Part shown: one piece after another, positions 38,840 through 42,723 of the stretch | How positions within the stretch are numbered: the first letter of the stretch is position 1 | Layout: every line of letters begins with the position of its first letter | Assembly: GCA_005884765.1 (NCBI GenBank) | Contig: VAZV01000147.1 | Location: 1-64,000, forward strand | DNA length: 64,000 nucleotides | Reading direction: 5' to 3' | Source of the DNA: Alphaproteobacteria bacterium | Lineage (GTDB): Bacteria; Pseudomonadota; Alphaproteobacteria; Rhizobiales; Xanthobacteraceae | The notes under the pieces: generated by a model | Databases searched by the model: none | What the model was told of the DNA's origin: nothing | The model's input: only the letters and a program-made list of their open reading frames with translations | Program-made: the position numbers and the translations under genes

Positions 38840-39700
38840 CTATCCCTTGAACTCCCGCGATCGCGACACGCGCCATAGCGTCCAAAGGACCTGAAACCTC
38901 GGGGTTACGCGAGGAACGAACGGATCGGCATCGGCACGCGACATCCGCGCCAGATCGCGGCGAACCAGCGCCAGCGGCAGGAAGATCGGCCTCACCTCCG
39001 GCGGAACGTCGGCAAGCAGGGCAAAGGCGGGCTGCAGGTGGCGTTGCGCCTCGCCTATCAACTGATCCAGCGCGGCGCGCACGCTTGGCGTCTGCTTGCC
39101 CGCAAATATTTCCTCGATGTTGCTGCCGTGTTGCTGCAGAACTTGCAGCGGTACGAATAATTGCCGCCGCGAGGCATCGAACGGCAAATTGGCGATCACC
39201 TGAGCAATCCCCTGCGCCAGGCCAGCGTGGCGCGCGAGGTGATCGATCTCAGGGGATTGCCACCCTGCGATCCGCGCGGCGAACAAAAAAAGCGCCGATG
39301 CGGTGTCGTTGATATAGCCTTCCAGCGCCGCCATCGACGGCATCGGATCGTTATAGAGATCGAACTGGTGCTCTTCGATCAGCCGCGTCAGCGGCTCGAC
39401 CGGCAGGCGGAAATGGCGGATCGTCAGCAATAGTTCGGCCGCCACCGGATGGCCCTCGACGTCGCCATGGTCGACGCCCGCGAGCATATCGGTCCACCAG
39501 TGCAAGCGGATTTCGCCGGGCAGCGGCTGGGTTACTTGCTTGCGCACCCTGGAAATCTCGGCGTTGAAAGCATACAGCGCAAGCAGCGCGCGACGCAGAT
39601 CCGATGGCATGAACAACGTGGAAGCGTAGCGGGCAAAATCATGGGTGCGCACCAGATCGGCGCTGAAGCTTTCGGAGCCGCTGGTGTCCGCACCGCTCAT
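38840..39700 (-). CDS. Squalene/phytoene-synthase-like protein, NDUFAF6-type
   Basis: 286-residue protein with the squalene/phytoene synthase fold. LLALYAFNAEISRVRKQV near residues 38-55 is where true synthases have the first Asp-rich motif (DDxxD), and QVIANLPFDASRRQLFVP near 169-186 is where they have the second. Both acidic motifs are absent, so prenyl transfer is unlikely. The closest known analogues are the mitochondrial complex I factor NDUFAF6 and its bacterial relatives. It overlaps the Mth938-domain gene by 4 bp and follows secDF in one operon. Confidence 0.82.
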   Translation of the reverse strand: MSGADTSGSESFSADLVRTHDFARYASTLFMPSDLRRALLALYAFNAEISRVRKQVTQPLPGEIRLHWWTDMLAGVDHGDVEGHPVAAELLLTIRHFRLPVEPLTRLIEEHQFDLYNDPMPSMAALEGYINDTASALFLFAARIAGWQSPEIDHLARHAGLAQGIAQVIANLPFDASRRQLFVPLQVLQQHGSNIEEIFAGKQTPSVRAALDQLIGEAQRHLQPAFALLADVPPEVRPIFLPLALVRRDLARMSRADADPFVPRVTPRFQVLWTLWRVSRSREFKG

Positions 39701-40077
39701 GGCACCGCGATCAAGGCCGCCGCGACGCGCCGCCGCTCGCCGATCATGACGTTATAGGTGCGGATCGCGGGTCCGGTCTGCATGGCGTCCAGGGTGACCC
39801 TTAACGCACGCAACGCGTCGCGAAGCTCGCGTGGCGGCAGCCAGACTTCGGTACCGGTGCCGACGATCAGCGTATCGATGACATTGGACGCCGCGAATAC
39901 CCGATCCAGCGAATATTTGTCGATCTGGCGCGGCGTCGTCACCGGCCAGGCCCAGATCGCATCCGGCAGGCAGAGCAAGGAGCCGCGGTGCGACATCCCG
40001 GCAAACACGAAACCGCCGTTGCCGTAGGCCTCAATCGGTGCCGACCTCGGAAGATGCGGAGCGTCTGTCTTGGGCAT
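39697..40077 (-). CDS. Mth938-domain protein, NDUFAF3-like
   Basis: 126-residue single-domain protein of the Mth938 (DUF498) family. Typical stretches are APIEAYGNGGFVFAGMSHRG, then LLCLPDAIWAW and TLIVGTGTEVWLPP. Human NDUFAF3, a complex I assembly factor, belongs to this family. It is followed with a 4-bp overlap by the NDUFAF6-like gene and preceded by secF at 27 bp. Confidence 0.85.
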   Translation of the reverse strand: MPKTDAPHLPRSAPIEAYGNGGFVFAGMSHRGSLLCLPDAIWAWPVTTPRQIDKYSLDRVFAASNVIDTLIVGTGTEVWLPPRELRDALRALRVTLDAMQTGPAIRTYNVMIGERRRVAAALIAVP

Positions 40078-40103
40078 CGGTTCCCCCTGTTCGGGATCAT
40101 GCC

Positions 40104-41108
40104 CTATTTCTTCGACGGCACGTCCGGGGCATCGGCGCGGTGGGTGCCGACGCCGAGATAGATCAGGATCGGCGCCGCGATGAAGATCGAGGTATACGTG
40201 CCGACCAGCACCACGCCGAACATCATGACTGCGGTGAAGCTGTGGATCGCCTGGCCGCCGAACAACAGCAGCGCCAACAGCGCGAGCGTCACCGTGACGT
40301 GGGTGACGATCGATCGCGACAGTGTCGAATTGATGGATTCGTTGAGCAATTGCGGCATCGGCATTTTCTTGTAACGCCGCAGCATTTCCCGGATGCGGTC
40401 GTAGATCACGACCGTGTCGTTCAACGAATAGCCGAGGATCGTCAACAGCGCGGCGATGCTGGTGAGGTCAAAATCGACCTGCGAAATCGACATGAATCCG
40501 ATTGTCAGCACGATGTCGTGAACGTTGGCGATCATGGCGCCGAGCGCGAACTGCCATTCGAATCGGAACCACAGATAGATCAGGATCGAAAAGATCGCGA
40601 GCATCAGCCCGAGCATGCCGTAGGCCAGGAGTTCGCCAGAAACGCGCGGTCCCACCACCTCGACGCGGCGGTAATCGACGGCATCGCCAAGCGCGCCGCG
40701 AACCTTCTGCACTGCCTCCTGCTGCGCCGCATCACCGCCGGGTTGTTCCGCCACCCGGATCAGCACTTCGTCGGGTCCGCCGAATTGCTGCAACTGGATG
40801 TCGCCGAGACCGAGTGTGGCGAGGGTGGCGCGCATGGCCGCGATATCGGCCGTCCCCGACTTGGCGCGTACTTCCAGGAGTGTACCGCCCTTGAAGTCGA
40901 TACCGAAGTTCAGCCCGTGGGTAAAAAACAGCGTGATCGCAATGATCGAAAGCGCCGCTGAGATCGGAAAGCTGATGCGGCGGAACTGGGTGAAGTCGAA
41001 ATGCGTGTCGTCCGGGACGATGCGCAGCGACGGCAGGATGCCGAGCACACTGACCACGGCCAGCACGGCAATGAGAACGCCGAGAGCAATAAGGACCAAA
41101 TGAGTCAC
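40104..41108 (-). CDS. secF: Protein-export membrane protein SecF
   Basis: 334 residues, six membrane segments. Together with SecD and YajC it supports Sec translocation after SecA. The N-terminal region has FDFTQFRRISFPISAALSI, the periplasmic domain GGTLLEVRAKSGTADIAAM, and the membrane part GYSLNDTVVIYDRIREMLR, all characteristic. It follows secD by about 16 bp. Confidence 0.97.
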   Translation of the reverse strand: MTHLVLIALGVLIAVLAVVSVLGILPSLRIVPDDTHFDFTQFRRISFPISAALSIIAITLFFTHGLNFGIDFKGGTLLEVRAKSGTADIAAMRATLATLGLGDIQLQQFGGPDEVLIRVAEQPGGDAAQQEAVQKVRGALGDAVDYRRVEVVGPRVSGELLAYGMLGLMLAIFSILIYLWFRFEWQFALGAMIANVHDIVLTIGFMSISQVDFDLTSIAALLTILGYSLNDTVVIYDRIREMLRRYKKMPMPQLLNESINSTLSRSIVTHVTVTLALLALLLFGGQAIHSFTAVMMFGVVLVGTYTSIFIAAPILIYLGVGTHRADAPDVPSKK

Positions 41109-41124
41109 GATCGGCTGCTCCGCA

Positions 41125-42723
41125 TCAAATTGGCACGCTTTGCGGCCGCTTCCACCGCACCCACCACGCCACGATGAGGCGGGTCAGGGTAAAAGCGGTG
41201 AAAACCGTGGTGATGATGCCGATGCCGAGCGTGACGGCGAAGCCGCGCACCGGCCCGGTGCCGATGTAGAACAGCACGGCCGCCGCGATGAAGGTGGTGA
41301 TATTGGAATCCAGAATGGTCGCGAGCGCGCGCTTGAAGCCCGCATCGATCGCCGAGATCGCATTGCGGCCGCCGCGCAACTCCTCGCGAATGCGCTCATA
41401 AATCAGCACGTTGGAATCGACCGCGATACCGACCGTCAGCACGATGCCGGCAATGCCGGGCAGCGTCAGCGTCGCGTTCAACAGCGACAGCAGGCCGAAG
41501 ATCATGGCGACGTTGATGGCGACCGCGATATTGGCGAACACGCCAAAGAGGCGGTAGGTCACCAGCATGAACACGATCACCATGATCGAGCCGACGTAAG
41601 CCGCGAGCTCGCCCTTTTCGATCGAGTCCTGGCCGAGGCCCGGACCGACCGTCCGCTCCTCGATGATCGTCAGCGGCGCCGGCAGCGCGCCGGCGCGCAG
41701 CAGGATCGCCAGATCGTTGGCCGCCTGCACGGTGAAATTGCCCGAGATCTGCCCGGAGCCCCCGGTGATCGGTTCGCGGATCACGGGCGCGGAAATCACC
41801 TCGTTGTCGAGCACGATGGCAAAGGGTTGCCCGACATTCTCCAATGTCGCCTGGGCGAACTTGCGCGAGCCGGCGCTGTTGAAGCGGAAACTGACGATCG
41901 GCTCACCGGAGCGCTGGTCGAAGCCCGGCTGGGCATCGGTCAAGTCGCCGCCGGAGACCAGCACCTGCTTCTTGATGACGTAGGGGATCTTCGGCGAGGT
42001 CGAACTCATCAGCACCTCGGAGTCGGGCGGTACCCTGCCCGCTTGCGCCTGATCCGGCGGCACCGTGCTGTCGACCATGCGGAATTCCATCTTGGCGGTC
42101 TTGCCCAGGATGTTCTTGAGCTGGGTCGGATCCTGCAAGCCCGGCACCTGCACCAGGATGCGGTCGGTGCCCTGCCGCTGGATCAGCGGCTCCACGGTGC
42201 CGAGTTCGTTGACGCGGCGCTCGACGATCTGGATCGATTGTTCGATGGTCTGGCGGATACGGTCGGTGATAGCGGCTTGCGGAACGCTCAACCGGATCAG
42301 CCCGCCGCCGGCGTCGCTGACTTCGAGCGTGCGCTGGCCGCTGGAGCCGACCAGTCCGCCCAACGGTTGCGACAGCTCGCGCAGCTTGCCGAGCGCGTTC
42401 TGCAGGTCGGTATCCTTGACGCGGACCTCAACGCTGTCGGGCCGCGTCGCAAGCCCGGTGTATCCGATCTTGGCGTCGCGCAGCGTGCGGCGCACATCAT
42501 CGCGGATCTGATCGAGCTTTTCTTTCTTGACGTAGTTGGAATCAACCTCGAGCAGCAAATACGAGCCGCCCTGCAGGTCGAGGCCGAGCACCAGGCGTCG
42601 CTGCGCCCATGCCGGCCAGGTCTTGACTTTGGCTTCGGGGAAGAAGTTCGGGACGGCGCAAAGGCACACCACCAACGCCGTCAGAATGATGCCGAGCGCC
42701 TTCCACCGCGTAAAATACAACAT
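41125..42723 (-). CDS. secD: Protein-export membrane protein SecD
   Basis: 532 residues. The first membrane segment is at 4-24. The large periplasmic region contains VLGLDLQGGSYLLLEVD, RNELGTVEPLIQRQGTDRIL (as VNELGTVEPLIQRQG), and GSGQISGNFTVQAANDL. The C-terminal five-helix core ends with VDSNVLIYERIREELRGG. The length is slightly below average for the family. The ATG (42721-42723) lies 44 bp after yajC. Confidence 0.97.
   Translation of the reverse strand: MLYFTRWKALGIILTALVVCLCAVPNFFPEAKVKTWPAWAQRRLVLGLDLQGGSYLLLEVDSNYVKKEKLDQIRDDVRRTLRDAKIGYTGLATRPDSVEVRVKDTDLQNALGKLRELSQPLGGLVGSSGQRTLEVSDAGGGLIRLSVPQAAITDRIRQTIEQSIQIVERRVNELGTVEPLIQRQGTDRILVQVPGLQDPTQLKNILGKTAKMEFRMVDSTVPPDQAQAGRVPPDSEVLMSSTSPKIPYVIKKQVLVSGGDLTDAQPGFDQRSGEPIVSFRFNSAGSRKFAQATLENVGQPFAIVLDNEVISAPVIREPITGGSGQISGNFTVQAANDLAILLRAGALPAPLTIIEERTVGPGLGQDSIEKGELAAYVGSIMVIVFMLVTYRLFGVFANIAVAINVAMIFGLLSLLNATLTLPGIAGIVLTVGIAVDSNVLIYERIREELRGGRNAISAIDAGFKRALATILDSNITTFIAAAVLFYIGTGPVRGFAVTLGIGIITTVFTAFTLTRLIVAWWVRWKRPQSVPI

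Follow-up and report, generated by a model that had tools for sequence, protein, structure and literature searches.

What do the two genes do that follow secD and secF in this alphaproteobacterium, and why is one of them maintained as a relative of squalene synthase without catalytic motifs? The locus lies on the minus strand of contig VAZV01000147.1 (Xanthobacteraceae), of which we analysed positions 1 to 64,000 (64,000 nucleotides, hereafter the window). The first gene encodes a DUF498/Mth938-domain protein resembling the human complex I assembly factor NDUFAF3, and the second a protein of the squalene/phytoene synthase family (hereafter the SQS-like protein) resembling NDUFAF6. The explanation that we favour, with moderate confidence and from sequence comparison, is that the SQS-like protein helps to assemble A-type complex I without acting as an enzyme, with the DUF498 protein as an optional partner and both coupled to secDF. 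Within one bacterial family, the distribution of the SQS-like gene follows that of A-type complex I.

An annotation made earlier from the DNA alone (the first-pass annotation) had described yajC-secD-secF followed by an Mth938 gene and, overlapping it by 4 bp, the SQS-like gene. Family matches bear this out, as does the ATGA at 39697–39700, in which the DUF498 stop codon overlaps the ATG of the SQS-like gene. In their order on the minus strand, the genes are as follows.

42768–43124, minus strand: yajC (TIGR00739, 89 bits; PF02699), with the start assumed at MLITPAFAQ; just beyond the interval 38840–42723
41125–42723, minus strand: secD (TIGR01129, 501 bits)
40104–41108, minus strand: secF (TIGR00966, 305 bits; PF02355)
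39697–40077, minus strand: DUF498/Mth938-domain protein, NDUFAF3-like, 126 residues (PF04430, 105.5 bits, cut-off 33)
38840–39700, minus strand: NDUFAF6-like SQS_PSY protein, 286 residues (PF00494, 194 bits, cut-off 26)

Fold and lost motifs of the SQS-like protein

PF00494 covers residues 17–276 of the SQS-like protein, and the signature ALYAFNxExxRxR...GEIRLxWW is conserved. In an alignment with HpnD from the same genome, the first motif reads SRVRK (residues 50–54) instead of DDIAD, and the second reads ANLPFD (residues 170–175) instead of RDIDED. The single Asp left in the second motif is mostly missing from other members of the family. The earlier statement that both Asp-rich motifs are missing was therefore right in substance, the first motif being gone and one Asp persisting in the second.

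HpnD and HpnC (presqualene diphosphate and squalene synthases) share a fold and a Pfam family with the SQS-like protein. The latter differs in having no DDxxD, in being 17–18% identical to the HpnD and HpnC of its own genome, and in scoring below the NCBIfam cut-offs for HpnD (121.5 against 278.6 bits) and HpnC (54.7 against 250.45 bits). It also falls below those for CrtB (39 against 500 and 39.4 against 550 bits). We ruled out a hopanoid or carotenoid synthase identity, as the HpnD and HpnC of this genome are encoded elsewhere (contig C56), with intact motifs and scores above their cut-offs (352.5 and 294.3 bits, respectively). Judged by the lost motifs and the missed cut-offs, the first-pass annotation was probably correct to reject a prenyl synthase label, and an automatic 'squalene/phytoene synthase' label is misleading for this gene.

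An AlphaFold2 model built on 25 aligned sequences (mean predicted local distance difference test score (pLDDT) of 92.8) matches CrtM-like and HpnC structures over nearly its full length, with Z scores of 27–31. The match to 8isa has a Z score of 31.1 (271 residues, 2.2 Å) and that to HpnC (4hd1) one of 27.1 (255 residues, 2.9 Å); CrtM-type enzymes give values of about 30 over 271–278 residues. When PDB sequences were searched with a profile, synthases alone were listed. Owing to the replaced motifs and the near-full-length structure matches, the modelled protein is best described as a well-preserved synthase fold without metal sites. The ratio of non-synonymous to synonymous substitution rates (dN/dS) is 0.12–0.24 against five relatives, indicating purifying selection.

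In our favoured reading, the SQS-like protein descends from a prenyl synthase, has lost the metal-binding motifs and would correspond in bacteria to NDUFAF6. Passages of PMC8007014 describe the squalene/phytoene synthase fold and the loss of both DxxxD motifs for NDUFAF6 (C8orf38), its orthologues and fungal NDU1. They have human NDUFAF6 act via ND1 biogenesis, use four of the known bacterial orthologues as an outgroup, and present what NDUFAF6-like proteins actually do as still unexplained. The bacterial gene differs in its position in a secDF operon beside DUF498, and its likeness to the eukaryotic proteins rests on family, fold and motif loss.

Conservation of the entire synthase fold in the model (Z of about 30 to CrtM-type enzymes) would also suit a ligand role, in which an isoprenoid (ubiquinone or a lipid, for instance) is held in the ancestral cavity and passed on to complex I or a membrane without synthase chemistry. 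Hydrophobic ligands are raised as a possibility for the fungal protein in a passage of PMC8007014. With the metal- and diphosphate-binding residues gone, we regard this alternative as improbable and prefer a non-enzymatic assembly factor.

The 'WW' signature was ruled out as the sole marker of the family: among the 13 best-scoring of 97 non-alphaproteobacterial genomes matched, 12 carry DDxxD and resemble HpnD. The only SQS_PSY protein among these 13 without DDxxD in the first motif is L288 2–1372 (G676), whose gene overlaps or follows an apparent phosphoglycolate-phosphatase-type gene (recognised by eye).

Distribution in relation to complex I

We surveyed 143 alphaproteobacterial genomes that are 95% complete or more. 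NuoD was matched in 130 (121 above cut-off), DUF498 in 78 and the SQS-like family in 105; 12 of the latter carry catalytic paralogues only, leaving 93 genomes with an NDUFAF6-like gene. These 93 calls comprise 57 read at the motif, the weakest being G109, G081, G110 and G073, and 36 accepted by score (at least 168 bits). Re-scanning all 50 negatives of this sample with a motif model (49, then G127) changed none. A NuoD match is present in all 93 genomes with the NDUFAF6-like gene (91 above cut-off) and in all 78 with DUF498, and neither gene was found in any of the 13 NuoD-less genomes. This association with NuoD looks strong across the class (p = 4e-7). Since no genome lacking NuoD exceeds 1.8 Mb, and the test has no power in that size range, we discarded class-wide presence and absence as proof.

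The window genome (G000) has two unfused NuoD genes (contigs C47 and C148), which share 40.6% and 39.6% identity with E. coli NuoCD, and therefore probably carries two complex I operons. Two other genomes (G052 and G142) have a divergent complex I cluster (L177 and L178), where a long frame, nuoG to judge from its length, comes immediately after the nuoD match in place of nuoE and nuoF. Their nuoF match lies on another contig, and both DUF498 and the NDUFAF6-like gene are missing.

To find a family of larger genomes differing in complex I, we extended the NuoD search to 389 genomes, of which 351 gave a match. Clades A and E are distinct complex I lineages, and in Rhodobacter sphaeroides, which has both types, the E-type was acquired horizontally, according to passages of PMC4859585. 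The family, probably Acetobacteraceae, comprises 100 genomes. An unfused A-type NuoD is found in 78, seven of which carry both A and E types. Another 11 have the E-type only, with fused NuoCD (82% identity to E. coli K-12 in two and 59–61% in nine). In eight more, NuoF was not matched, and NuoD was matched only weakly (E value of 5.5e-20 or worse) or, in G187, not at all. The NDUFAF6-like gene is present in 76 of the 78 A-type genomes, including all seven with both types. It was found in none of the 11 E-type-only genomes and none of the eight without recognisable complex I (0 of 19 in total), whose sizes range from 1.9 to 3.7 Mb. The association has a p value of 3e-18, a figure that ignores descent.

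Among the 76 family calls, 35 were read (29 + 6) and 41 accepted by score (at least 130 bits); the next lower score, 121 bits, belongs to a second match in a genome already having one. The A-type was assigned by reading in 26 of the 78 genomes and by NuoD score in the others. As A-type and E-type NuoD cannot be told apart by score near 567–572 bits, we read 20 further genomes in which the score was borderline or the frame long, and all 20 proved unfused and 36–41% identical to E. coli. Two genomes were doubtful because their NuoF scores above cut-off, like the A-type ones (G408 and G470); they were counted as E-type owing to a fused NuoCD that shares 82% identity with that of E. coli K-12. Three genomes were excluded from the count, G406 and G449 with only weak NuoD matches and G399 with a truncated NuoD; all three have the NDUFAF6-like gene. 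As a separate observation, the loci of G408 and G470 (L268 and L269) suggest that E-type complex I was transferred, apparently recently, to alphaproteobacteria of ~2 Mb.

We tentatively suggest, with slightly less than even confidence, that the NDUFAF6-like protein is specific to A-type complex I and useless for the E-type, and that it was dropped when a lineage abandoned the A-type, partly replacing it with the E-type. If this is true, A- and E-type complex I need different biogenesis machinery, and strains with both types could separate a complex I-specific role from a general one.

Several observations weigh against the favoured role in A-type complex I assembly. The NDUFAF6-like gene is not required for every complex I, being missing from 37 of the 130 NuoD-positive genomes of the class sample (30 of the 121 above cut-off), many of them small. 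Among genomes of 1.8 Mb or less, it occurs in 3 of 23 with NuoD and 0 of 13 without, which is not significant (p = 0.29). Within the family, G434 has an A-type complex I, and the gene was not found in it; G445 keeps its A-type complex I together with a decaying copy containing stops and frame changes (L301, G445:C1:289200-291200). Conversely, the drafts G406 and G449 carry the gene with weak NuoD matches, and NuoF has one match below cut-off in G449 and none in G406. Finally, descent reduces the number of independent events. A tree of HpnC and HpnD from 40 of the 100 genomes (41 rows, 29 of them with HpnC) leaves out 4 of the 19 genomes without the A-type (G423, G393, G447 and G428) and groups the 15 placed ones as one clade, weakly supported (ultrafast bootstrap of 70). 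Because these genomes form one clade, the simplest account is about one joint loss of the gene and the A-type, and two losses of the gene only.

A probable single co-loss, together with the many complex I genomes that have one or neither of the genes, is also what would be expected if an unrelated housekeeping pair had simply stayed behind secDF and disappeared with the A-type by coincidence in one clade. We consider such a historical accident distinctly improbable, given that the gene is kept in all seven genomes with both types and that a table in PMC10910544 includes NDUFAF3 (Q module) and NDUFAF6 (proximal membrane module), which belong to these two protein families, among complex I assembly factors.

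Gene neighbourhood and the DUF498 gene

The neighbourhood was compared in the best 80 of 585 confirmed named relatives, mostly Bradyrhizobium, down to 43% identity. All 80 have DUF498 immediately ahead of the SQS-like gene, and in 79 of them secF precedes DUF498; the remaining locus has no match upstream of DUF498. In the class sample, secF was matched in 27 of 30 DUF498 loci (the best-scoring, one per genome, of the 78 genomes with DUF498). Both genes occur in 71 genomes, on one contig in 61 and within 10 kb in 55 of these. The secDF-DUF498-SQS-like arrangement exceeds chance. Adjacency is not universal, as several loci have an opposite-strand gene between DUF498 and the SQS-like gene. In other alphaproteobacteria, a gene for an Fe/Mn superoxide dismutase or a PF06181 (Urate_ox_N) protein adjoins DUF498 on the opposite strand (L014 1907–2539, L005 739–1431, L015 1912–2559 and L012 852–1409), and in several loci this is the intervening gene.

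Such tight linkage to secDF and yajC would equally be expected of general biogenesis factors of the Sec machinery that serve many membrane complexes, complex I being one client. Passages of PMC4949548 propose a SecYEG-SecDF-YajC-YidC machinery in Rhodobacter sphaeroides and report an association of LhaA with YajC and YidC during photosynthetic complex assembly. In the family, the NDUFAF6-like gene was not found in any of the 19 genomes without A-type complex I, at sizes of up to 3.7 Mb, which makes this explanation unlikely. The operon position also fits the favoured role of the SQS-like protein in complex I assembly, at the membrane insertion of NuoH.

The DUF498 protein has its best solved relative in 2fvt (E value of 1.6e-59), and 2fi9 is also among its PDB relatives. 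NDUFAF3 (C3orf60) is a Mth938/DUF498-domain protein, and the window protein resembles it in carrying PF04430 above cut-off. It differs from NDUFAF3 in being dispensable alongside A-type complex I: in the 100-genome family, which includes the 78 genomes with the A-type, DUF498 was found above cut-off in two genomes and as a weak match in one, and 97 have no match. To judge from these matches, A-type complex I in this family does not require DUF498, so DUF498 and the NDUFAF6-like gene form no obligate module.

The first-pass annotation had proposed an ancestral complex I assembly module consisting of this pair. Its link to complex I is supported, through the NuoD matches in every genome of the class sample with the NDUFAF6-like gene and the absence of the gene from the family members without the A-type. 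The pair as a fixed unit is not supported: 22 of the 93 genomes with the NDUFAF6-like gene have no DUF498, and 7 of the 78 with DUF498 have no NDUFAF6-like gene, in addition to the near-absence of DUF498 from the family.

Proposed role and relation to earlier work

ND1 is the homologue of NuoH. The SQS-like protein may act as a membrane-associated chaperone in the early assembly of A-type (mitochondrial-type) complex I, most likely on NuoH as it leaves the Sec/YidC insertion machinery, perhaps in contact with SecDF. The DUF498 protein, like NDUFAF3, could aid the neighbouring Q-module step as an optional partner. If both genes share the secDF transcript, their products would be made where and when membrane insertion occurs. 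These roles presuppose that the bacterial proteins are orthologous to the human ones, as their families and folds suggest.

The central idea of the first-pass annotation is very probably already known, because Saada et al. 2009 (Am J Hum Genet 84:718) reportedly link NDUFAF3, in their abstract, to a bacterial SecF/SecD/YajC gene cluster and to C8ORF38, that is, NDUFAF6. In the open-licence PubMed Central (PMC) literature searched, a relation of the NDUFAF6-like gene to A-type and E-type complex I was not found. The new element is the A-type-specific co-loss, behind which stands about one event; more lineages are needed. NDUFAF3 and NDUFAF6 both co-evolve with C2orf56, according to a passage of PMC3436739, and PMC4992684 attributes mitochondrial disease to mutations in the human homologues. 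The role can be tested in a bacterium that has this kind of gene in a simple operon and whose relatives carry A-type or E-type complex I, both types or neither.

Beside the operon, a protein-kinase-like gene (37616–38743, plus strand; NCBIfam PRK09188, 596 bits), which ends in an AMP-binding-enzyme C-terminal domain, is oriented toward the SQS-like gene and was matched in 57 of the 80 relatives.

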